Source: Planctomycetota bacterium (lineage in GTDB: Bacteria; Planctomycetota; Phycisphaerae; Phycisphaerales; Phycisphaeraceae). Taken from it: a stretch of 61,438 bases of DNA. Position 1 is the stretch's first letter. Every line of letters starts with the position of its first letter. Shown piece after piece: positions 19,820-32,078 of the stretch. Location: the NCBI GenBank assembly GCA_024279865.1, contig JAJRRC010000101.1, forward strand, positions 1-61,438, given 5' to 3'. The position numbers were made by a program, and so were the translations under genes. The notes beneath the pieces are model-generated. The model did not search any database, was not told the origin of the DNA, and saw nothing but the letters and a program-made list of their open reading frames with translations.

Positions 19820-21238
19820 TTAGGATTTTTCTTGAACGTGAGGCGTTGTAAAAGTTCCATTCGAAGTCATTTGAGGGGAAGGAACCGGGGGAACCGGGGG
19901 AACCGGGGGGACCGGGGGTAAGCTTCCGGGGGCATTGCCGGGGGCGGGGGAAGGGAAGTGAACGGGATCTTCACTGAGTGGCTCTTCGGGGAGGGCATCG
20001 TCTGAGTCTTCTGGATGCTGCTGCTTCATGAGCACCTTGTTCTGAGCGGACTTGATGGCTGTTACTGCCACAAAAGCAAAGAGCACAAAGAAGATCGCCA
20101 AGACATATCGCCATCGCAAGAAAACCATCAAGCAGCCAATGACTGCAAAACCCAAGGACAGGGTGTACAACGTCATGACCGTTTGTTTAATCGTTAAGCC
20201 ACTTTTACGGAGCTGGTGATGGAGATGCCCTTGATCGGGACTAAAAATCGGACGGCCGGCAATCTTCCGCCTAAAAATCGCCAACGTGGTATCCGTAAAC
20301 GGCATGGCAAAAACCACCAATGCCGCCATCACCAGAGCTGGAGCAGGACCCGGCGCATGAGCCAACAACAAAATCGTGGACACACACAAATAACCCAACA
20401 ACAAGGAACCGGCATCGCCCATAAAAATATTGGCGGGATGAAAGTTGTAAGGCAAAAATCCTAAAATCGCCCCCAAGATTGCCAAACACATCACCAACCG
20501 AATCGGACTGGTAATCAAGTCGACCCCCGGCAACTCCGCCTGCGGATTGGATAACCCAATGGCCACAATAATTGAAATCACCAAAAACCCTGTGGTGGCA
20601 ATGGCACTCACACCCGATGCCAAGCCATCCATCCCATCAAGCAGGTTCACAGAATTACATCCGCCAAGCACCAGGACCGTAATAAAAATCGCGCCCAGCA
20701 CATAGGCTGCGGTATCCATATAAGGGAACACAATCCCAAGTGATTTAAAAGAATCGGATACCAATTCCGTGCCTAAATCACCAGACACCAAGGCTGCTGC
20801 TGCAAAAAGCTGGCCACCGATTTTGATTCGAGGCGTGACGCTGTAAACATCATCAATCACGCCGGTCAGGATAATCACCGTCGCACCAATGGCAATGGCA
20901 AAGGGGAATTTGACATGCATCATCCCCATGGCAACCACACGTGAATCGTGGGGTTGAATCACAAAACACATTAGAAGCCCCGCCAACCAGCCAAAGAACA
21001 ACGCCAGCCCGCCAAGATAAGCGACCGGTTGAAGATGAATCTTTCGTTTGAAGTCAGGCAAATCGACCACGCCGTTGCGGATCGCCAACATGCGGACCAG
21101 AGGGGTTGCCAACAGAGTCACAAAGAAAGCCACAAAGAAAACAGACATGTAGGGCGCAAGCACATCGCTGGCGGTGAGCTTTGCAACTGAATCTGTACTG
21201 GCTGTTACCAGTTGACCTATCGTCAACAGGGGATCCAT
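19820..21238 (-). CDS. Polyprenyl-phosphate sugar-1-phosphate transferase (WecA/TagO-like, GT4 family)
   Basis: About 472 residues from ATG 21238, with around ten membrane helices. The enzyme would move a sugar-1-phosphate from a UDP-sugar to undecaprenyl phosphate, the first step of a surface polysaccharide. Family motifs are YLGGLALFFGW, GVIDDVYSV, NLLDGMDGLASGVSA, NFHPANIFMGDAGSLLLG and the cytoplasmic HLHHQLRKSG. The C-terminal 70 residues are soluble and low in complexity (PAPGNAPGSLPPVPPVPPVP), encoded by a G-tract repeat. It is the last gene of the exosortase/exopolysaccharide run. WecA and MraY cannot be told apart by eye alone, but the HLHHQ motif favours the WecA group. Confidence 0.87.
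   Translation of the reverse strand: MDPLLTIGQLVTASTDSVAKLTASDVLAPYMSVFFVAFFVTLLATPLVRMLAIRNGVVDLPDFKRKIHLQPVAYLGGLALFFGWLAGLLMCFVIQPHDSRVVAMGMMHVKFPFAIAIGATVIILTGVIDDVYSVTPRIKIGGQLFAAAALVSGDLGTELVSDSFKSLGIVFPYMDTAAYVLGAIFITVLVLGGCNSVNLLDGMDGLASGVSAIATTGFLVISIIVAIGLSNPQAELPGVDLITSPIRLVMCLAILGAILGFLPYNFHPANIFMGDAGSLLLGYLCVSTILLLAHAPGPAPALVMAALVVFAMPFTDTTLAIFRRKIAGRPIFSPDQGHLHHQLRKSGLTIKQTVMTLYTLSLGFAVIGCLMVFLRWRYVLAIFFVLFAFVAVTAIKSAQNKVLMKQQHPEDSDDALPEEPLSEDPVHFPSPAPGNAPGSLPPVPPVPPVPPVPSPQMTSNGTFTTPHVQEKS
19874..19950. repeat. G-tract minisatellite, copy 6 (3' end of the sugar-phosphate transferase gene)
   Basis: Units GAACCGGGG and GACCGGGGG, then TTCCGGGGGCATTGCCGGGG and GCGGGGG. It encodes the Pro-rich tail GNAPGSLPPVPPVPPVPPVP of the membrane enzyme. 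The longest in-gene array of the window. Confidence 0.85.
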
Positions 21239-21295
21239 GATGCCTCGCTGTTTCTGCCCCTCCAAGGGCGGTAAGCATGGCCGCGTGAATTTGCG

Positions 21296-21321
21296 AAACA
21301 CCGCCTAATGGGGCGGTGTTT
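21296..21321. other. Perfect hairpin between the Wzc-like gene and the sugar-phosphate transferase gene
   Basis: AAACACCGCC (21296-21305) pairs with GGCGGTGTTT (21312-21321) across a 6-base loop. On the plus side a T-rich run (21325-21338) follows; on the minus side, the direction of the genes, no T-run follows. It could be an RNA stability or attenuator element in the 5' leader of the sugar-phosphate transferase, or a plus-strand terminator. Confidence 0.5.
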
Positions 21322-21402
21322 CACTTTTATTTTTTTTGCACTGTGTTCAACACATCATTACACAGTTTTTCATACAACGGCCTTCCTCAACAGGAGAACG
21401 TT

Positions 21403-23697
21403 TTAGACCTTGCGATCTTCATCATCTTCATCACTTGGCGAACCCTTGAGATCGGTGATTGAATCGGATGTTAACAAGGAAGATTTCACGTCATCCTGAT
21501 AGGCCACCGCATCGAGCGATCCATTTTGACGGTACTGCCGAAACGCTTCATAGTTCTTGCGGAAGTAGCCGCCGGCACTGGATTCCACGGCATTGAGGAT
21601 GATGCCTAGCATCACCGCGGCATTGCCGTCGAGCATACGAAGCATACGACTCACCATCCCTCGTTGATCTCGAGCAGCCCGCACCACCACTGCCACCGCA
21701 TCAACATGCTTGGACAGGATCTGTGCTTCACTGGTCAACAACGCAGGAGGTGCATCAATGAGAATCACATCATAACGGGCTCGACAATCATCAAGCATCT
21801 GTTGGAAGGCGCGGCCTTCGAACAGTTCTGGTGCAACGGCAGAGCTACCGCCTGCTGTCAAAACATCCACGGATGGATCAACCATGTGCATGATCGCATT
21901 GTCCAACGTGCTAGTCCCTCGAAGTACTTCAGCAAGCCCAGTACTACCACGAACACCAAAGAGCCGATGCTGCACAGGTCGACGGAAGTTGGTATCAACC
22001 ACGAGAACCTTGCGGCCGTCATGCGCCAAGCTCAAGGCCAGGTTATTGACCACCGAAGAAGTTCCTGATTCAGGCTGCGGACCGACGAGCATGATGGCAC
22101 AATGACCACTGCGTTCAGCGGCGGTGAGAATTGCGGTGCGCACCTGCCGGAAGGATTCCGCCATGAGGCCGGTGGGATCTTTCTGGACCACGTTTTCAAT
22201 TTCACGTGGACCCAATTCATCTTCACTGGCCAAGGGCAATACGCCCAACACCGTCGCATGAGGAATCAACATCACGTCACTTGGACTCTTGACGCGTTGG
22301 TCAAGCAGTTCTTTGACGAAGATAAAGAGCAAGAAGAATGCTTCAAGCAACACCACGGTGGTAACGATCACGCCCGCTTGGGTGGGGAAGGTCAATCGTG
22401 GTGTGGTCGCAGCCAAATGGTTGGTCACGCCCGCACTATCAGGGCGGCTATCACGAATGGCCATGTCGTCGAGCAATTTTTGAGCTTTGTTGCGTCGAGC
22501 GATGATACTTTTGGATTTTGCTTCGATGACATTGTATTCGGTGAGGGTTTCGGTCAGATCGCGTAATCTAGCGCGGGATTCTTCGAGTGCCGGTTGCATG
22601 CCGATGATCTGACCTTCGTAGGTTGCGACCGCTTTTTGGGATTGATCCAAAGCGACTGCCTGGCGTTCACGCAGCAAGTTATCCACTTCGCGTTTGCGTT
22701 CGACTTCGGTGGCTGCAATTGTACGATCCACTTCTAGCACCGCTCGATGATCTTTTCCAAATCGGTGCATGAACACATCACGTTTTTCACGCAAAACACG
22801 TAGCCGTTCATCACGACCCGAAATGGCAGGGTCCGCTTCGACCTTCGCCAAAGCATCAGGGCCAATGGCAATGCGACCTTCTGCGTGAGCAGCCTTCAAA
22901 GCACGGTACACTTCACGCGAGGTTTGTAGATTCACCGCAATCACCGAAGCCTGGGAAGCCAATTCGTTGTAGGTCAGATTGGCTTCATCATTGGCTGTGT
23001 GGAGCGTCGCCAAGTCATGTTCTTCGCGGAACTGTTTGAGCTGCTGCTGAATGTTTTGATATTCGTCTTCAGCTTTATCTCGTTCACGGACAAATACTTT
23101 CCGCACGTTGGAAGTATCGGTTCGCTTACGGTTTTCATATTGATCGCGATAAGCTTCAATAATGCTGTTCAAAACCAATTGAAGGTCCTGTGACTGATTG
23201 CCTCGCAGCTTGAGCTGAATCAGAGTTGAGCCAATGATCTGGTTCGCAAAGAAATTCTCCCGGAGTGTTTCCTTGGCCTTTTGCACATCGGTGCCGAAGT
23301 GGCGGAACCATCGTGTTTCACGGAGGGCTGGTTTTTTAATTGCAGCTTCGATCACGTCATCGGACTTGATCATGATCACTTGGTTCTTGATAAACGCACG
23401 CAATACATCAAGACGTTGCTGCTTGGGGCTACCCCCCACGGAAGGTTCTTCGTAGGCATGGGTCAGCGAACCGGTCACCAGCAATTGAGCTTGTGAGGTG
23501 TACTGAGGCCACGCAAATTTCAAAACGAAGAATAAAACCAGTCCCAATACAATGCCAAGTACCAACATGCCGATCAGTCGCGTCATGTATTGCCGTAAAA
23601 CACGCACTGGGTCCAACGGCGTAAACCGGGTGGATATAGATGATGCGGGTACTGAATTTACCATAACGGGTGATGGTGATAATGGGTTTGCGGTCAT
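21403..23697 (-). CDS. Wzc-like polysaccharide co-polymerase/tyrosine autokinase with degenerate P-loop
   Basis: 764 residues. The N-terminal Wzz domain has membrane helices near residues 40-60 and 440-460, with a long coiled-coil periplasmic region between. A cytoplasmic BY-kinase-like domain follows. Walker A' (VLVVDTNFRRP) and Walker B (VILIDAPP) are clear, and a Tyr-containing tail follows (GGYFRKNYEAFRQYRQNG). The position of Walker A reads GPQPESGTSSVVNNLA at about residue 539, so the Lys of GxGK(S/T) is replaced by Thr. Wzc/CpsD proteins control chain length and export of polysaccharides by cyclic autophosphorylation; this one may lack kinase activity. It lies between the TPR protein and the sugar-phosphate transferase. 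Confidence 0.85.
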   Translation of the reverse strand: MTANPLSPSPVMVNSVPASSISTRFTPLDPVRVLRQYMTRLIGMLVLGIVLGLVLFFVLKFAWPQYTSQAQLLVTGSLTHAYEEPSVGGSPKQQRLDVLRAFIKNQVIMIKSDDVIEAAIKKPALRETRWFRHFGTDVQKAKETLRENFFANQIIGSTLIQLKLRGNQSQDLQLVLNSIIEAYRDQYENRKRTDTSNVRKVFVRERDKAEDEYQNIQQQLKQFREEHDLATLHTANDEANLTYNELASQASVIAVNLQTSREVYRALKAAHAEGRIAIGPDALAKVEADPAISGRDERLRVLREKRDVFMHRFGKDHRAVLEVDRTIAATEVERKREVDNLLRERQAVALDQSQKAVATYEGQIIGMQPALEESRARLRDLTETLTEYNVIEAKSKSIIARRNKAQKLLDDMAIRDSRPDSAGVTNHLAATTPRLTFPTQAGVIVTTVVLLEAFFLLFIFVKELLDQRVKSPSDVMLIPHATVLGVLPLASEDELGPREIENVVQKDPTGLMAESFRQVRTAILTAAERSGHCAIMLVGPQPESGTSSVVNNLALSLAHDGRKVLVVDTNFRRPVQHRLFGVRGSTGLAEVLRGTSTLDNAIMHMVDPSVDVLTAGGSSAVAPELFEGRAFQQMLDDCRARYDVILIDAPPALLTSEAQILSKHVDAVAVVVRAARDQRGMVSRMLRMLDGNAAVMLGIILNAVESSAGGYFRKNYEAFRQYRQNGSLDAVAYQDDVKSSLLTSDSITDLKGSPSDEDDEDRKV

Positions 23698-23751
23698 AAG
23701 TGATACCCCCTCTCAATTGGGTATTGCTTTCGAAAAATCGTCATTTTGAGT

Positions 23752-26700
23752 CTATCGTGTCATTTGCTTAAGTCGTTGGTTAATCTTCTGAAGCATCTGC
23801 TCATCTTTTGTTTGTTCGGCAAATTGTCGTGCCATATCCAGTAACTCCGTAGCATATTGTGTATTTCCTGCTTTTAGTAACACTTCAGCCAAGTGATACG
23901 TATTGGCAGAAAACGGTTTAATCCTCACACTTCGACGCAGCGTTTTCTGAGCTTGGTCGGATTGGCCGTTCAAAAACTGAATCCATCCAAGCGTGTCAAG
24001 CACCTGCGAATCGTTGGCAGCCTTCTGAGCTGCCTCGGTCGCCAAAGCCAAGGCTTCGGATTTTTTCCCAAGATTCATCGCCAATAAATATGCCAAGTTA
24101 TTCATGGCGGCAAAGTTATCGGGCTGTTCCTCTAGAACCTGACGATACACCTCGGCAGCATTTGCAAAGTCACCGCTATTGTGAAGCGCCAATGCCAGCA
24201 ATCCACGAAATTGCGACTTTTCTTCTGTTTTGATGCGACCTTTAATCCGTTTAAGACGATTAGCCGCCTGATCATACTTCGACGCAGAGAGTTCTCCGCG
24301 TGCAATCGCCATTTGAATCCAGCTATCGGACGTTGAAATAGCTCTCGAACCAAGGTCCACCGTCGCCTGTGACAAGCCCGCAGCAGCAATCCACTGGTCG
24401 GTGACCTCAAGCATCTGGTCCAAACGAGAACAGGCCCCGATGGCAGCCTCAAACAGCTGCTTGGCCTGAGCATGACGCCCCTGCTTATGGTGCGCCCTGG
24501 CAAGGACTGCCTGAAGCACCGGCGATTGAGACAGCAAGGATGCCTGCGCCTCGATTGCTTTTTGAGCTCGATTGGGCTGAGAAATCGCAATCCATTGCAA
24601 ACCCAGCGTGGCAAGTGTTTGAGCCGTCGGCTCAAGGGCAAAAGCTTTGGACAAATATTTGATCGCTTGGCGATGGTTTTTCTGCTTGATCGCCAAATTG
24701 GCTTGCAACTGAGGCCAACGTATTTCCTCCGGGAATCGCCTGGCACTATCACTCAGCAAGGTCCGAGCCGCGAGCATGTCCCGTTTGTCAATATACATTG
24801 TTAACAAATTCAGCCGGGTGGGGATATCGTGGGGCTGGCGTCGCAGCAGTGACTCAAGCTGACTGACCGCTTGTTCAAAACTGTCACGTCGCAGGTAAAT
24901 CTGAGCCAGCAGCCGATGGGCCGCACTGAGATTGGGATTGAGTTCTAAGACCTTGCTCAAATCTTCAATCGCCCGATGTTCCGTCTGAGGGTTTGAAGCA
25001 AGCAAGGTCGCCCGCTGGAAATACACCATGGCTTTGCCTGGCATCTGAGCAATTGCGTGATCCAGCATCGCCAGTGCTTCAGAGGGTTTGCCTGCTAATT
25101 TGGCCACTTGAGATCGCAACAAAAAGGAGGTCACACTCGGCCCGTCAGACAGTTTATCTATTTCGTCGAGTGTTTGTAATGCCGCATCTGTTTGCTTGTG
25201 GCGAAGCTGAGCTTCGACGAGGCGATAGCCCACCTTGGTATCCGTGCGATCCAATTCCCAAAGGGTTTGGTATAACAACACCGCTTCTTTGATTTCACTG
25301 CGATCAAACATAGCATCCGCCAACTCGCGTGTTGCGATATGGCGTTCGGATTGATCGAGCTTGATGGCTTGGCGATAGGCTTCAAACCCGCCTGGCGTAT
25401 CTTGTACGTTGAGTAAAAAGCGGCCCAGCATGAGCCAATCCTTGGCCGCCACTTGCGAACCACGAGATGCTACATAATTTTTCAAGACGAGCTTGGCTTC
25501 ATCCATTCGATGAGCCACCGCGAGCACCGTGGCTTTGGCGCCATAGTTCTCGCGTTCATTGGGGAACTGGGTCAACAACGCGTCCAGCACGTCGCTCGCC
25601 TGGGCAAACCGGCCCATGTGAGCGTACAACACCGCCAAGCCGCGACGATTCACGTGGTCCTCAGGTTTGGATTGAGCCAATTGACGACGCATCTTCAATG
25701 CTCGATTCGGATCACCCCAACGCTGCTCATAAAGCAAATACTGCTCACGCAAAACCGCATCACCCGCAAAAAAAGCCATCGCCTGTCGCCAAACACGCAA
25801 TGCGTCATGATGACGACCCGCGTGCGCCAACGTGGCGGTGAGCCCTTGATACGCTTTTAAATTGTCCGGCCGTTGCTTGATCGCACGTTCATACGAAATT
25901 TCTGCGGCAGCCAAATCGCCCGCCCCCTGCTGCGCCAAAGCCAGCAAACGCCAACCCTCAGAATAAACAGGCCTGGCAACCAAACCGCGAACCAACAGTC
26001 CCACGGCACGTTGCATTTGACCTTGGGCCATCTCCAAACGACCCGCAAACAAAAGGCCCCCAGCGAGGTCGGTGTTCTTGACCTTGGCTTCTTCAATAAG
26101 CTCATGAGCTTGGTCCCAATCCGATTCTTCCATCGCACGCTGAAACTTTGCCTCAGCGACCTGGGGAGAACCCGGACGCAACTGAGCTGCCACGTCCAGA
26201 GCCGCAACCATTTCTTGAGTCTTGCCCAACTGACGATTCAGATTGTAATGACCCATCGCTCGATCAAATGGATCTTCGATCTGATCGACAATTTTTGTCA
26301 CCGCACCAATGGCCACCTGCGTGGACGCTTGGCTTGGGTCTCTCGCTTGAAGCAACGCAAGGGCATTGCGGTCGGCGCCCGCCTGCTTCGCCTGTTGGAA
26401 ATAGGCCTTGAGTTCACTCTTGTTCGTCACACATTGACTTAGCTCACGTAGCAAGGCCAAATTTGATGGCGCGATACGAAAATGATGGTCCAACAATTGC
26501 CGAGCCACCACTTTTTGATCCGCAGACAAATACAAACGGGCCAATCGCAAAGCAATGTCCAGGTTTTCCCAAGGCTTAAGCTGATTGTAAATCTCGATTG
26601 CTTTGCCCAACTCATTGACCTGTGCAAAATAAACCGCTTGCAACTGGAGCGCATTGGGATCGGCCCCATTGGCGCGCAATAAAATGTCAATTTGCGTCTT

Positions 26701-28218
26701 CGCCTTGGCGGGCTGAGCGAGTCGAAGTTGAAGTTTCGCCAATTCAAATCGAGCGGGCAAGTAGCTTGCACGAATTTTTAAAAGTGATTCAAGGCGAGTG
26801 ACTGCCGCTCCCAATTCACCGAGCTTGGCACAGGCAGTGGCAGACAGCAACAAGACGTCAGGCTTGCGATCTTGAAATTGCGTACTGGCACGATCCAAAT
26901 GCGCCAAAGCAGTGCCCCAGGATTGGCGTGCCAATTCTAACTTGCCTAAAAGCATGCTCACATAGGCGGTTTCTCCCACATCAGCCTGCATTTTTTCAAT
27001 GAGTTCTCTCACTTGAGTCAATGCTGTTTCACGGTTGGCCCCTGTCTGGAGATCCGCATCGCGCAAAACCAAATCGACATAATGAACCATGGCGGCGCGT
27101 TGTAGCTGGACAAACTGATAAGCCACCAAAGGTAGTGCTTTAAGCTTCAGATTTGCCGCCTGTTCAAAGACCTTTTTGGCTTGATCGAATTGACTTGTCA
27201 TGGTGAGAATTTGGCCGTGAAGTACCTGTAAACGAATATCTTGGGGATGAGCCTCCACCGCCTTCTGGACCAACGCTTGAGCCTTGATTAGGTTCGGCGT
27301 TTTTTTCGGAGCTTCGGCTTGTACGTGGCGACCACTCCATGCTAAATGTCTCACCACTTCCAGTATCAACTGCGCCGAATCCGGGGCCGCCAAAAGCTGA
27401 CGTTGCAACTGATCGGCTAGTTTGTTGGCCTCTTCGCTCAATCCCAATTGTGCGAGCACGCGAAGATGATAGACCTTGATCTGGGCATCATCAGGATATT
27501 GTTCAAGCAACGCCTTGGACCATTTCAAAGCCAAGTCCCGTTGAACTTTCATTTTTTTCGTGTTGCCGCCGGGCTTGTCCAAACGCTTGTATTCAATCAC
27601 ATGCCAAAGAGCCAAATGATGGTCAATCAACGGTTCATTTGAAAACGCATTTTTGGCTTCGGTGAGATCTTTCAACGCCATCTCTCGGTCCCCAAGCAAC
27701 ACCGAAAGCACAAACATCCGGTTCACTTGAGCAATCCCGCGGTATTCCCGGGCAACCTGACTCGTCGGATCACTCAACACCGTGGTGTTGGTGATTTTGA
27801 AAAGTTGATCCCATGCGTCCAGATCACCGAGCTCTCGACCGAGCCTCATATAAATATTGGCAATCGCGTGCATCGCGGTCGCGTTTTGAGGCTCCACATC
27901 CAACACTTTTTTGTAGACATCCAAGAGACGAGCGATCATCGCCTGTGCCCCACGCGAATTGGAAACTTCCAATTGGCCCATGGCCTCGGCATGTTTCAGT
28001 AGCAAATTCACGTCGCCCGGCCGACCGGACCTTGCCCGGCGATAATACTCCACCGCCTTGACGTACTGCCCCTGAGCCACCAGCGCATCAGCTCTGGCGA
28101 TGTACTCTGCGGGGTCCGTTCGAACGAACAGATACCACACGCCTACCAAACTAATAATCATCCCCACCAGTGTTGCACTGAGGATCACCACAAACTTTGT
28201 ATTCACCCGTCCAGCCAT
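23752..28218 (-). CDS. Giant TPR protein of an exosortase locus (PrsT-like)
   Basis: 1488 residues from ATG 28218 (MAGRVNTKFVVILSATLVGM). One N-terminal membrane helix (about 8-30) anchors it, and the remainder is a near-continuous series of tetratricopeptide repeats, for example ALVAQGQYVKAVEYYRRARS. Proteins of this size and build accompany exosortases in Gram-negative bacteria and are named PrsT in the PEP-CTERM system. There is no lipobox Cys, unlike typical PrsT, so the anchor is a helix. It probably acts as a scaffold in the periplasm for polysaccharide assembly. It is 70 bases downstream of the exosortase and 54 upstream of the Wzc-like gene. Confidence 0.8.
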   Translation of the reverse strand: MAGRVNTKFVVILSATLVGMIISLVGVWYLFVRTDPAEYIARADALVAQGQYVKAVEYYRRARSGRPGDVNLLLKHAEAMGQLEVSNSRGAQAMIARLLDVYKKVLDVEPQNATAMHAIANIYMRLGRELGDLDAWDQLFKITNTTVLSDPTSQVAREYRGIAQVNRMFVLSVLLGDREMALKDLTEAKNAFSNEPLIDHHLALWHVIEYKRLDKPGGNTKKMKVQRDLALKWSKALLEQYPDDAQIKVYHLRVLAQLGLSEEANKLADQLQRQLLAAPDSAQLILEVVRHLAWSGRHVQAEAPKKTPNLIKAQALVQKAVEAHPQDIRLQVLHGQILTMTSQFDQAKKVFEQAANLKLKALPLVAYQFVQLQRAAMVHYVDLVLRDADLQTGANRETALTQVRELIEKMQADVGETAYVSMLLGKLELARQSWGTALAHLDRASTQFQDRKPDVLLLSATACAKLGELGAAVTRLESLLKIRASYLPARFELAKLQLRLAQPAKAKTQIDILLRANGADPNALQLQAVYFAQVNELGKAIEIYNQLKPWENLDIALRLARLYLSADQKVVARQLLDHHFRIAPSNLALLRELSQCVTNKSELKAYFQQAKQAGADRNALALLQARDPSQASTQVAIGAVTKIVDQIEDPFDRAMGHYNLNRQLGKTQEMVAALDVAAQLRPGSPQVAEAKFQRAMEESDWDQAHELIEEAKVKNTDLAGGLLFAGRLEMAQGQMQRAVGLLVRGLVARPVYSEGWRLLALAQQGAGDLAAAEISYERAIKQRPDNLKAYQGLTATLAHAGRHHDALRVWRQAMAFFAGDAVLREQYLLYEQRWGDPNRALKMRRQLAQSKPEDHVNRRGLAVLYAHMGRFAQASDVLDALLTQFPNERENYGAKATVLAVAHRMDEAKLVLKNYVASRGSQVAAKDWLMLGRFLLNVQDTPGGFEAYRQAIKLDQSERHIATRELADAMFDRSEIKEAVLLYQTLWELDRTDTKVGYRLVEAQLRHKQTDAALQTLDEIDKLSDGPSVTSFLLRSQVAKLAGKPSEALAMLDHAIAQMPGKAMVYFQRATLLASNPQTEHRAIEDLSKVLELNPNLSAAHRLLAQIYLRRDSFEQAVSQLESLLRRQPHDIPTRLNLLTMYIDKRDMLAARTLLSDSARRFPEEIRWPQLQANLAIKQKNHRQAIKYLSKAFALEPTAQTLATLGLQWIAISQPNRAQKAIEAQASLLSQSPVLQAVLARAHHKQGRHAQAKQLFEAAIGACSRLDQMLEVTDQWIAAAGLSQATVDLGSRAISTSDSWIQMAIARGELSASKYDQAANRLKRIKGRIKTEEKSQFRGLLALALHNSGDFANAAEVYRQVLEEQPDNFAAMNNLAYLLAMNLGKKSEALALATEAAQKAANDSQVLDTLGWIQFLNGQSDQAQKTLRRSVRIKPFSANTYHLAEVLLKAGNTQYATELLDMARQFAEQTKDEQMLQKINQRLKQMTR

Positions 28219-28288
28219 CTTGCTGTACTCCTCTCCTTGGTTTAGGAGATTCAATCACGCACTAAAAACAGACGCGTCCGATAAAAAA

Positions 28289-30370
28289 TTATCGTTGAGC
28301 GTCCAATCCATGAGGAGGCCATCGCCCCTCGGTTACATCGTCCCAATCAGGCAGACAAGCCATGATCTGGGGTAAAATTTCTGATAAAAAGTCCGATGCC
28401 CGTTGGCGTGCCAGTTCGGGGTCTGCTACGAGATGGACCCCGATTTCGATTTTGCAGTAGAAACTATATTCATCTGTCAGCGAAAATCCACCGAACCGGA
28501 CATGGTCAGGCGAAGGCAGAAAATTGCCGTTGGCGACAAAAAAGTAAATCACATTTGATTGCAACTTGGGTTGCTTCACAGGGCCAAAGGAAAACACCGT
28601 GGCAGGAATATCGATCTGAGGAATCCGCACCAGTTTCTTCGAAAGAGGGCTTGAAGCGAACCATTTGCCATCCACTGATCGGTAGTTTGGCCCTCGCATG
28701 TTCAAAATAGATTGGCTTTTACCCCGAGGCGATAAGCCCGCTGCCACGAAACAACGGTCAGGCACATGAGGCACCGTATCAGGCGTGCCCGTGTAATACG
28801 CCACATGCAAACGCACCGTCGAACCCGGCTCTGTAATCGGCATGGCGGTATCCCGATACGTCCGCGAAATATATTCACGCGTCCGAAGTTCTTCAAGAAT
28901 TTCATTAGACAAACGCTCATCATCAATCATCTGCCAACGACCAAATGACTGAGGCAACACCACCAGCGACTGACGCACAGGCACGGGTTTTTTAATCAGC
29001 ACCGCCTTCGTCACCCCCACCACAGTTTGCAACCCCACCACGGCCGTCACCAACACCCCCACGCACGCCGCCTGGGCTAAAACAAATTGGCCGTGGGACC
29101 TCAACATGCGACGAAAGCCCCATCCCCCCACCGCCACCCCTGCCACCGAGACACAAAACAGTCCCACGACGAGGGGCTTCTGAATTTCAAAACCAAGTAA
29201 ATGAGGGCGAAAACAAGCCAAAAACAGGCCGTAACTCAGACCGATGAGCAAAGCCAAACATAAACCCGCGCCCAATCCCCACATGATTCGCCAGCGTGAA
29301 ACCAAGCTCTGCTCGGCAGTGGTCTGGGACCTCGCCGGGAGAGAATCCGGTTCTTCAGAAGACTTCAGGGCTTGGTCTTGAAGGTCATCATCACTTGTTT
29401 GTTCATCTGGTACAGCGTCAGAGCAAGCATCCATCTCCAGAGATTCGTCATCTTGCAGAATCAGTTGATCCAAAATCCATGCGACGCACAAGAAACCCAA
29501 CAAGGCAGGGATCAACATCAACATCCCCACAAAAGTATGCACATCGCCCGCAGCCCACTGCTTGTCAACAAGATGGAGCAAGCCCAAGGCCGTCACCCGT
29601 CCCACATTCACCGCCACCGCAATCGGCAACGTCAATACCACCAACGTCCAACGCTGCCACCACGCCCGATCCGCCAAAAAGGCCACCGCCACCCCCAACG
29701 CCATAAAAGCCGCCAACATCCGCAAGCCCGAGCAAGCTTCTGCGACGTTCAAGACTTCGACAATCCATTGGCCATCCTTTTCAAAGGACAACCTGATAGT
29801 AGAACCGGTGACGGAAGCTTCGAGTTTGAGAAAAACGCCGAAGAAATTCAGGGCTGCCGTCGCAGCCTCCGCGGCAATGAGCTGAAGCTTCCAGGCAATC
29901 TGCTCCCAGATTCGGTCGGATACTTTCACTGCAAAAATCATGTAAGCCACGGGGAACCATAAAATCCGCATGCGTGACCAGCCCTGTAAAAACAGGACCA
30001 GGCCAAACAAAGCAATAATCATGCTATAACCCTGAAGCATGTCATTACGCCCGGGATAAATCCACCAGGCATAACTAAAAATACCCATGAATAAAACAGC
30101 CAAGCCTGTCCCTGATATCTTGCGTGGCTTAAGATCTAAACGACCCTGTTGTTGATAAACATACCAACCGGCAATGAGAGGAATGACCAGTGCATGGGAC
30201 CAGTCGCCGCCCCAACGGCTCATGGCAATCAATGCCATGCGAACCAAAAAGTTGCGAAACAAGATACTAAATAAAATGCCGATCAGACCCAGCCATAGCC
30301 AACTACTCCGAGTCATCAGACGCTTCGGCGTAGCAATATCAATCGATTGGATGGCAGGCGTTGTGGTCAT
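28289..30370 (-). CDS. Exosortase fused to EpsI domain
   Basis: 693 residues. The N-terminal 300 residues form the eight-helix exosortase/archaeosortase domain. Catalytic residues are Cys213 in VAEACSGLRMLAAF, Arg258 in VNVGRVTALG and His278 in DVHTFVGML. A charged linker (about 308-350, rich in D/E/S) and further helices follow. The C-terminal 200 residues form an EpsI domain (PQSFGRWQMIDDERLSNEIL, LHVAYYTGTPDTVPHVPDRC). Exosortases cleave and anchor proteins bearing a C-terminal sorting signal, and EpsI-type domains are tied to exopolysaccharide export. No protein with an evident PEP-CTERM-like tail is encoded in this window, so its substrates lie elsewhere. Confidence 0.9.
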   Translation of the reverse strand: MTTTPAIQSIDIATPKRLMTRSSWLWLGLIGILFSILFRNFLVRMALIAMSRWGGDWSHALVIPLIAGWYVYQQQGRLDLKPRKISGTGLAVLFMGIFSYAWWIYPGRNDMLQGYSMIIALFGLVLFLQGWSRMRILWFPVAYMIFAVKVSDRIWEQIAWKLQLIAAEAATAALNFFGVFLKLEASVTGSTIRLSFEKDGQWIVEVLNVAEACSGLRMLAAFMALGVAVAFLADRAWWQRWTLVVLTLPIAVAVNVGRVTALGLLHLVDKQWAAGDVHTFVGMLMLIPALLGFLCVAWILDQLILQDDESLEMDACSDAVPDEQTSDDDLQDQALKSSEEPDSLPARSQTTAEQSLVSRWRIMWGLGAGLCLALLIGLSYGLFLACFRPHLLGFEIQKPLVVGLFCVSVAGVAVGGWGFRRMLRSHGQFVLAQAACVGVLVTAVVGLQTVVGVTKAVLIKKPVPVRQSLVVLPQSFGRWQMIDDERLSNEILEELRTREYISRTYRDTAMPITEPGSTVRLHVAYYTGTPDTVPHVPDRCFVAAGLSPRGKSQSILNMRGPNYRSVDGKWFASSPLSKKLVRIPQIDIPATVFSFGPVKQPKLQSNVIYFFVANGNFLPSPDHVRFGGFSLTDEYSFYCKIEIGVHLVADPELARQRASDFLSEILPQIMACLPDWDDVTEGRWPPHGLDAQR
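29344..29370 (+). repeat. AATCC...GAAGACTTCAGGG interspersed repeat, copy 3 (inside the exosortase gene)
   Basis: AATCCGGTTCTTCAGAAGAC then TTCAGGG, matching the intergenic copies at 15885 and 4461. Here it lies in the coding sequence and encodes the linker ALKSSEEPDS between the exosortase and EpsI halves. Short chance similarity is possible. Confidence 0.45.
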
Positions 30371-30524: not shown

Positions 30525-32078
30525 TTACTTTTTCTCAGAGCCAACCGAAGGATCGCTATCAGGGTTGTACAACGCAACCAACTGACCTGCCTGAGCCTGT
30601 TCGATATTGTGAACGCCACCATGCGGCTGCACACTGAGTAAAAACCAGCCCGGCCCCAATAAATCAGACGCATCAATAATCCCAGAGGATTCCACATTGC
30701 GTGTAAACGGCAACGTGGGCTTGCGATCCAATGATCCAAAACGAACTGGATCAAGTTCCGCCAAACACTTCGCAGTCCCATCAGCAATGGTGTATTGCCA
30801 AACCTTGGGGTTGCGTGGGGAATTGGCGGTGTCTTCGAGCATCAAGACATGTCCAAAGCGATCCATGGCAATATTGTCGAGCATTTGGATATCGCAGGTT
30901 TGACTATCAAGCAACACTTCAAGGGTTCCGCCGAGCATCAGATTTTGACGATCTTTAAAACGTAAACGCCACAACCGGGTGCGGCCGACCTGATCAGCCG
31001 TCTTGCCAACTTTAAGTTTCACCAATCGTTGACGAACCTCAGGGTCCGGATATCGAGCGATGTCATAGCGGTCGGTGGTGGTGAAATAAAAATCAGTTAA
31101 ATGGCTCGGATCCCAATGTCCATCTTCGGGACGATGAAACGCGGTCACGCCCAGGCGAACACTTTTTTCTTCAAGAGCCATGCCTTTGATCTGGGCCCCA
31201 TTTCCAAGTAAAACCAAAGAAAACGAACGCGGATTGGGGCCAATACCTTGCTCACGGCTTTCGGCAGGCACGCCTTGAACTGCGATGCCGTAGAGCTGGC
31301 CGTTGGTGAGGCCGGCTTTTTCGATAACGTTGCCGGTGCGTTGTTTCTGGCCTTGATAGAGATAAAGTTGGCCACCCATTGAGTCATCTAAGCTAATGAG
31401 AATGGTGGCTGCGCCCGTCGCGGGATGCGGGACAACATTTTCCCATGCAGCTCGGCCAAGCCGTGGCAATTCGTAACTTGTACGGGCTTGGGGGCCATCC
31501 ACAATATGAACATAGGCATAGCCGCCATGCTTAATTTCTTCGCCGTTAAAGTAGAGTCGTTCATGGGTTCCGAGGCCGGTCGCCTGATCGAAGAACGCGT
31601 GTTTGGGCATCAACGTCGCAGAGCATAAATATTCGAACGCTTTGGGACTTGCTGCTTTATATTGTTGTGTTTGTCGATCCCAGTTGATGACTTGTTGTAC
31701 AAGGTCTTCGCCGTGAATCACGCGTGTGGTTTTTTTGTGAATGATCCATTTGGAGACAAACGCGCCTCGCTTGCCATGGACTCGTTGAATGCCTGTTTTT
31801 TTTCCAAATTCATGATTGACCAGCAGGGTGAAAGTCCCGTCGCCGTTATCAAAAGCGCCAAGCCCGTCAGGCGTGCCTGACAGGAGGTAAGGCGAACCAT
31901 CAGCACGTTTGTTCACAGAATCGCCAGCCGTCAGGATCGCGTGGGTTTGAACACCTTGAGCCACGGGAACCACATAAGACGTATCACTGCTACTAGGCCC
32001 TTGCCCAGAAACCTCCGCGTGAACTTGCCCCGCAACCACCGCAACTAGACAACAAGCCCAACCCAACCCATGTCTCAT
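30525..32078 (-). CDS. Exported PhoX/DUF839-family protein
   Basis: 517 residues with a signal peptide (MRHGLGWACCLVAVVAGQVHA). The beta-propeller-type family shows GTFTLLVNHEFG, the WENVVPHPATGAATILISLD segment followed by DSMGGQLYLYQG, LEDTANSPRNPKVW and ASDLLGPGWFLLSVQPH. Members include the calcium/iron-dependent phosphatase PhoX, which releases phosphate from phosphoesters in the periplasm. The canonical PhoX active-site residues cannot all be placed by eye, so a phosphatase function is only likely. No Tat-type double-Arg signal is present, unlike typical PhoX. It stands alone downstream of a response-regulator gene, separated by a terminator. Confidence 0.72.
   Translation of the reverse strand: MRHGLGWACCLVAVVAGQVHAEVSGQGPSSSDTSYVVPVAQGVQTHAILTAGDSVNKRADGSPYLLSGTPDGLGAFDNGDGTFTLLVNHEFGKKTGIQRVHGKRGAFVSKWIIHKKTTRVIHGEDLVQQVINWDRQTQQYKAASPKAFEYLCSATLMPKHAFFDQATGLGTHERLYFNGEEIKHGGYAYVHIVDGPQARTSYELPRLGRAAWENVVPHPATGAATILISLDDSMGGQLYLYQGQKQRTGNVIEKAGLTNGQLYGIAVQGVPAESREQGIGPNPRSFSLVLLGNGAQIKGMALEEKSVRLGVTAFHRPEDGHWDPSHLTDFYFTTTDRYDIARYPDPEVRQRLVKLKVGKTADQVGRTRLWRLRFKDRQNLMLGGTLEVLLDSQTCDIQMLDNIAMDRFGHVLMLEDTANSPRNPKVWQYTIADGTAKCLAELDPVRFGSLDRKPTLPFTRNVESSGIIDASDLLGPGWFLLSVQPHGGVHNIEQAQAGQLVALYNPDSDPSVGSEKK

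Follow-up and report, generated by a model that had tools for sequence, protein, structure and literature searches.

The Wzc-like protein of an exosortase locus

The window analysed here is the whole of contig C2 (JAJRRC010000101.1, 61,438 nucleotides) from the 3.42 Mb, 122-contig genome (G000; GCA_024279865.1) of a Planctomycetota bacterium of the class Phycisphaerae and order Phycisphaerales. Four open reading frames lie in a run on its minus strand, encoding an exosortase fused to an EpsI-like domain (28289..30370), a 1500-residue tetratricopeptide repeat (TPR) protein resembling PrsT (23752..28254), a Wzc-like protein (21403..23697) and a WecA/MraY-type polyprenyl-phosphate sugar-phosphate transferase (19820..21301). 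The initial annotation of this DNA had placed such a run here, and both the family matches and the conserved gene order agree with it. Our main subject is the Wzc-like protein, a single chain of 764 residues in which a polysaccharide co-polymerase of class 2 (PCP-2) appears to be fused to a pseudokinase domain of the bacterial tyrosine kinase (BY-kinase) fold.

The protein scores 122.9 bits against the BY-kinase family TIGR01007 (cut-off 108.05) despite the missing catalytic lysine. Since this family names a tyrosine autokinase, the passed cut-off serves as a warning for annotation. Alignment with the solved CapB kinases is gap-free at the P-loop (Walker A, residues 539–548, GPQPESGTSS; 22054..22083, minus strand) and sets Thr546 at the position of the catalytic lysine, as the initial annotation had read it. 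The codon of Thr546 is ACT (22062-22060), at least two changes away from AAA or AAG. The Walker A' motif (residues 566–574, VVDTNFRRP; 21976..22002, minus strand), which had been taken to be intact, is not: it reads DTNFR in place of the canonical DxDxR, with Asn570 (codon 21988-21990) at the second aspartate of DxD. By motif, this position should equal Asp564 of Escherichia coli Wzc, used as an active-site marker in a recent study (PMC11986026). Walker B (residues 644–658, VILIDAPPALLTSEA; 21724..21768, minus strand) retains Asp648, and the C-terminal tail (residues 704–726, GGYFRKNYEAFRQY; 21520..21588, minus strand) carries two conserved tyrosines, Tyr711 and Tyr722.

Models built from four sequences support the assignment of the fold. 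The kinase-domain model (mean predicted local distance difference test score, pLDDT, 71.6; predicted template modelling score, pTM, 0.73) finds as its top Foldseek matches Wzc K540M (E 4.9e-19) and CapABK55M (5.9e-19), with wild-type CapAB chimeras practically tied (6.2e-19), and against isolated kinase domains it reaches a Z of about 25 over 221–242 residues, as is to be seen in a BY-kinase fold. The full-length model (mean pLDDT 71.7, pTM 0.37) aligns with Wzc chains over roughly residues 26–723 at a root-mean-square deviation of at least 17 Å, the placement of the domains differing. For the co-polymerase part, the Pfam Wzz family PF02706 scores 21.8 bits (cut-off 25.5), and two membrane helices were judged by eye.

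The surrounding genes belong to a conserved Phycisphaerae operon (Wza–exosortase–EpsI–TPR–Wzc, with or without the sugar-phosphate transferase), whose gene order is maintained in the loci read. Among 40 wide loci from the window's order, the exosortase, TPR and Wzc genes are adjacent on one strand in 38 and the transferase follows in 37; the exceptions are a locus that stops at a contig edge (L043), one with a different, canonical Wzc (L083, in genome G049) and one with no transferase match (L038, in G053). All four genes are present in 3/3 named loci. At class level, exosortase, EpsI, TPR and Wzc occur together in 7/7 loci, with no match to the window's transferase there, and the exosortase, TPR and Wzc genes are all labelled in 13 of 18 further class loci, one of the remaining five being on a short contig. 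Not mentioned in the initial annotation is a Wza-like lipoprotein gene that at least 41 of 68 loci contain; in the loci read, it immediately precedes the exosortase. A GalE-like gene, identified by eye, is present in 24/68 and sits between the Wzc and transferase genes where a transferase is present. These neighbour-cluster counts, like the 13 of 18 above, are lower bounds, as shadow reading frames in GC-rich DNA interfered. In the genome of the window, the Wza orthologue lies on another contig (C33, L273), with a PF02563 match and 79% identity over 501 residues to its counterpart in the relative L131. Directly upstream of the window's exosortase, where relatives such as L131 have the Wza-like gene, is a PhoX-like gene (30525-32078, minus strand).

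Loss of the lysine and fate of the remaining motifs

When 61 genomes from the family and order were searched with the protein, 58 gave a match, and in 55 of them this was the full-length operon Wzc (alignment A1, 55 rows); G017, G023 and G049 gave other kinases only, and G001, G013 and G019 no match. The profile of A1 matches 374/397 genomes of the class at E values up to 1e-105, a threshold set after sampling the phylum, in which 105/294 genomes gave a match at 1e-60 and scores from outside the class reached at most 350.7 bits. The 253 matching frames were reduced to 199 by dropping those that share a 60-residue stretch with a kept frame, which left four near copies from the order (L048, L079, L131, L272; all without the lysine) and second copies of one gene out of the tree, and then to 189 when ten short stand-alone kinases, all with the lysine, were excluded for their gaps. 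The counted sample does not extend to the order matches in G517, G551, G563, G575, G608, G625 and G637.

The motif columns were left out of a FastTree phylogeny of these 189 rows, in which the operon-Wzc family comprises 167 (support 93) and the other 22 fall outside it. Of these 22 outgroup rows, 12 come from the class and 10 from other classes. They were selected to root the tree because they carry Asp at 570, with L129 added, and their count of Asp is therefore not independent. Lysine was no criterion in this selection and is found in 22/22. The window's order forms one branch with a support of 100 both in this tree and in an IQ-TREE phylogeny of 73 rows, and the lysine is absent in all 114 of its rows. 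The sister orders (n=53) have Lys in 35 rows, Arg in 13 and neither in 5, the last in families f97 (3/3), f99 (1/2) and f7 (1/3), which brings the whole family to 119 rows with neither, 35 with Lys and 13 with Arg (n=167). The Asn570 substitution is commoner than the loss of the lysine, being present in 166/167 family rows. Because Asn570 is so widespread while Lys is kept in 35/53 sister-order rows, the change from Asp to Asn seems to have come first and the loss of Lys later, once at the base of the order or close to it and again in other places. The count of changes from Lys or Arg to neither is three and hinges on how f97 and f99 join the order, which is unsure. A row of f7 outside the family, L129, has Lys together with Asn.

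The lysine is not the only charge to have gone. An acidic residue stands at position 544 in 43/48 rows with Lys or Arg and in 1/119 rows without. In the window's order, small residues replace both the lysine and the acidic residue two positions before it. As a control, 11 further distinct short kinases have Lys in ten and Arg in one (L062, 274 residues, G030). We note that this L062 (G030 C1:4749357-4749971), short and BY-kinase-like with a P-loop of EGRAS and a Walker B of INAPS, may be another pseudokinase, and that a Wzc-like protein from another class of the phylum (L125, G108), with GEGKDLVS as Walker A (Asp at the usual Ser/Thr) and INSPP as Walker B, is possibly an independently altered kinase.

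The comparison of the P-loop with planctomycete homologues, which the initial annotation had proposed, does reveal the loss of the lysine, as a feature that is fixed across the order as sampled and not a peculiarity of one genome. The 114/114 rows and the distance of ACT from a lysine codon rule out a sequencing error or a single-genome oddity. Relaxed decay would account for a lost lysine, and some rows from other orders do have Arg, Ala or Thr in its place, but with the reading frames open and the neighbouring residues frozen, decay or error is scarcely conceivable as the explanation. In fact, G545, S/T547, D648, R517, G680, G710 and Y722 are invariant in the order (114/114), E514, N570, R572 and Y711 are found in 113/114 rows and D568 in 109/114. 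Because the fold, the pocket Gly and Ser/Thr, the Walker B Asp, the ExxR motif (E514, R517) and the two tail tyrosines are nearly or fully invariant, we conclude from the alignments that the pseudokinase domain is not decaying.

Position 546 itself varies (entropy 2.22 bits, rank 132 of 225 in order rows) within narrow bounds: where neither Lys nor Arg is present (119 rows), only T, A, V, S, C, G, I or N occurs. Among the 53 sites of like entropy it is the sole one wholly within the set G/A/S/T/C/V/N/I, three others reaching 0.98, the set having been chosen post hoc. This restriction, as if the shape of the loop were selected, and the near-invariance of G545, S/T547, D568, R572 and D648 around a varying 546 would fit a ligand sensor, in which a phosphate ligand, either a nucleotide (perhaps bound without Mg) or some other, still occupies the kept pocket and its binding, in place of phosphorylation, moves the ring between states. 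Against such a sensor, two charged residues are lost, and the lysine is a main phosphate contact in P-loops. In simulation, the Walker A lysine holds the inactive state by bridging to the Walker B aspartate (PMC8517177), and its removal may therefore change rather than abolish binding. We regard a sensor as possible but rather unlikely, and note that it overlaps with the explanation preferred below.

An active tyrosine kinase of unusual chemistry, with another basic residue in place of the lysine, is improbable. It could draw on the conservation of Arg572, Arg679 and the two tail tyrosines, and on the Arg found at 546 in 13/167 family members. However, the canonical rows also have Arg or Lys at 679 (21/22) and Arg at 572 (16/22), so that neither is a new substitute, and both were rejected as replacements for the lysine. 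The aspartate at 570 is gone as well, and mutation of K540 is reported to abrogate phosphorylation in E. coli Wzc (PMC8285477). In the open-licence literature, judged by titles and the openings of abstracts, we found no paper on a homologue with the same substitution and proven kinase activity.

The tyrosine tail, said by the initial annotation to remain, does so in part: Tyr711 and Tyr722 are nearly and fully invariant, while the tail as a whole is reduced, the median number of tyrosines beyond residue 703 being 3 in the order, as against 4 in the sisters that carry Lys or Arg and 6 in the canonical rows (n=22). Conserved tyrosines would also be seen if the protein were the substrate of another kinase, its tail phosphorylated in trans by a canonical BY-kinase and the cycle persisting with catalysis elsewhere. 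A canonical BY-kinase above the TIGR01007 cut-off is indeed encoded in the window's genome at C1:45871 (SATPQEGKTITS). However, in six of the 61 genomes searched for BY-kinases (G038, G043, G047, G051, G052 and G055; 92–99% complete) no other BY-kinase was found, and these relatives keep both the operon and the tail tyrosines. Trans-phosphorylation by a BY-kinase can therefore not be general, and we consider this explanation quite improbable for the window's protein; a kinase of a different family might still act in trans. A further BY-kinase-like match in the same genome (contig C118, 1464-2066; a 248-residue frame) scores 89.8 bits, below the family cut-off.

A putative Wzc ring without a phosphorylation cycle

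We favour, with a probability of roughly two in three, the reading that the Wzc-like protein joins a naturally occurring pseudokinase of the bacterial tyrosine type and a PCP-2a co-polymerase in one chain, is encoded in a conserved operon and works without a phosphorylation cycle. The fold is that of a BY-kinase and Asp648 of Walker B is present, while two of the catalytic residues are replaced, the Walker A lysine by Thr546 and the second Asp of DxD by Asn570. The protein thus resembles the BY pseudokinases of PCP-2 systems, with its motifs partly kept, unlike EcpK. It does not belong with the bipartite EcpK/HfsB-type subfamily, its kinase part being one with the 764-residue chain and not stand-alone. 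The initial annotation's view that the genes make up a coherent export module is well supported by the conserved gene order. That its Wzc probably does not hydrolyse ATP in the usual way has good support too, from the 114/114 rows without Lys and the apparent two-step loss to which they belong.

For what such a protein might do, E. coli Wzc is the closest guide. There, the unphosphorylated protein forms octamers and phosphorylation breaks the ring (PMC8285477, PMC11986026), the K540M variant is a homogeneous unphosphorylated octamer (PMC8285477), and higher Wzy activity accompanies a more stable octamer (PMC11986026). With both Lys and Asp lost, the window's protein should stay unphosphorylated and ring-prone. 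The autophosphorylation cycle, which in E. coli moves Wzc between octamer and monomer, would be beyond its ability, and the protein would be mostly an unphosphorylated ring with the tail tyrosines of one subunit in the Asn570 pocket of its neighbour. Such a ring would support polymerisation and Wza-linked export, either constitutively or under the control of a partner (the TPR protein, the exosortase or a ligand). Less surely, the exosortase of the operon may process PEP-CTERM proteins encoded elsewhere in the genome.

Several observations weigh against this picture. Continuous cycling is reported as needed for the E. coli capsule (PMC8285477), and a locked octamer alone might by analogy not work; the present system would therefore either dispense with cycling or open the ring in another way. 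The frozen pocket residues could mean that a nucleotide is still bound or even used, and a pure scaffold need not be expected to conserve its tail tyrosines. The tail is of low confidence in our models (pLDDT <50), placing its contact with the neighbouring subunit outside them, and one family row (L133) has Asp at 570. With regard to the exosortase, PEP-CTERM matches number 61 in G023 (95% complete) and 41 in G017 (82%), and the operon Wzc was found in neither. Other exosortases can therefore serve such proteins, and that the operon exosortase is the group's PEP-CTERM sortase as a general rule was consequently reduced to likely.

A further elaboration of the phosphorylation-free ring couples it to the exosortase: the tyrosine tail, no longer a substrate, would be a permanent structural latch on Asn570, opened from the periplasmic side by the TPR protein or the exosortase, so that polymer length would be coupled to protein sorting. 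We consider this doubtful.

E. coli Wzc K540M differs from the Phycisphaerae protein in being a laboratory mutant of an active kinase, and it keeps the DxD of Walker A'. The two are alike in architecture and fold, in the loss of the same lysine and, if our reading holds, in the unphosphorylated octamer (PDB 7NHR; PMC8285477, PMC11986026). BY pseudokinases are already known as a kind through EcpK, HfsB and a few fused cases, as described in the excerpted text of PMC12004946. EcpK of Myxococcus xanthus likewise has a BY-kinase fold without catalytic residues and is linked to a PCP-2 co-polymerase; its motifs, like those of all myxobacterial orthologues, are missing, and action as a scaffold without tyrosine phosphorylation has been proposed for it, with EpsV as partner (PMC12004946). 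In contrast to this separate protein, which in the same account has neither Walker motifs nor tail tyrosines, the Phycisphaerae protein is fused, keeps the Gly, the Ser/Thr, the first Walker A' Asp, the Walker B Asp and two tyrosines, and adjoins an exosortase. HfsB/HfsA of Caulobacter and the fused PCP-2 pseudokinases (SMc01795, VV1_2305 and others) share a defective kinase part, in some cases fused, and belong to other phyla; the excerpted account of them (PMC12004946, after Cuthbertson et al.) describes neither a stepwise loss with surviving intermediates nor a link to an exosortase. What the present family adds is its spread across a class in fused form, a loss that apparently went stepwise and left living intermediates, a pocket and a tail that are retained, and the link to an exosortase.

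In current models, the function of co-polymerases is bound up with cycles of tyrosine phosphorylation. The living states DxN with Lys, DxN with Arg and DxN without Lys make it possible to ask directly what each residue contributes and whether such a cycle is required at all.

The exosortase, its putative targets and the other operon genes

The 693-residue protein at 28289..30370 (minus strand) passes the exosortase cut-offs of PF09721 (158.6 bits) and TIGR02602, with the EpsI-like domain matching PF11984 at 39.7 bits. Cys213, Arg258 and His278, which we take to be the catalytic Cys, Arg and His, are present in 70/70 aligned exosortase rows, a count in which the window's gene figures three times and one row (L073) adjoins a canonical Wzc. 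Scores for the named exosortase types fall well below their cut-offs (XrtD 165.5/400, XrtW 157.7/425 and XrtA 103.5/208 bits). The TPR protein (23752..28254, minus strand) matches many TPR families and has a single N-terminal hydrophobic stretch, judged by eye; its score against the curated PrsT family TIGR02917 is 231.2 bits, below the cut-off of 312.2. The 493-residue transferase (19820..21301, minus strand) matches PF00953 at 111.8 bits and scores below the cut-offs of the WecA and MraY models.

This gene set recalls the XrtA/PEP-CTERM system (EpsH, EpsI, PrsT and a tyrosine kinase), in which an exosortase, EpsI, a TPR protein and exopolysaccharide genes are likewise found and the PEP-CTERM targets are scattered (PMC1569441, as excerpted). 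The window's exosortase, TPR protein and Wzc-like protein differ in scoring below the cut-offs of the XrtA-system families (TIGR03109, TIGR02917 and TIGR03018). In the open-licence literature on Phycisphaerae with PEP-CTERM, on planctomycetes with Wzc or exosortase and on exosortases with tyrosine kinases, we found no paper that, judged by its title and the opening of its abstract, deals with the system described here; one general review mentions both Phycisphaerae and PEP-CTERM.

The initial annotation had called the targets of the exosortase unlinked. This stands in so far as none of the genome's 11 PEP-CTERM matches, taken up to E 10, lies on C2. Targets do exist, with seven PEP-CTERM proteins above the cut-off elsewhere in the genome, which rules out that sorting targets are absent; PEP-CTERM tails were seen for five of the seven (L101–L105). 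In addition, the genome has a second exosortase locus: a stretch of about 8 kb on contig C38 (35435-43634, L181) encodes an exosortase, a PEP-CTERM protein and a Wzc paralogue with the lysine. A TIGR03008 (pepcterm_CAAX) protein also reaches its cut-off, at 81.6 bits, with two matched stretches (contig C83, 10632-11396; L001, L002).

Among the 61 relatives, an exosortase is found in 61 and PEP-CTERM in 59, against 0/14 control genomes. Seven genomes have a single exosortase match, on the contig of the operon Wzc, and their PEP-CTERM matches number 34 (G053), 20 (G043), 13 (G038), 12 (G060), 3 (G051), 1 (G052) and 1 (G055). Because it is the sole exosortase match in the PEP-CTERM-rich G053, G043, G038 and G060, the operon exosortase probably suffices for PEP-CTERM proteins in some species. 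The exosortase frames of the family relatives G023 and G017 (611, 585 and 693 residues) may be of another type. The two genomes without a PEP-CTERM match are the incomplete G013 and G049, an order relative that is 97% complete and in which the operon Wzc was likewise not found. With its two exosortase matches and its canonical Wzc (L083), G049 offers a natural contrast to its relatives.

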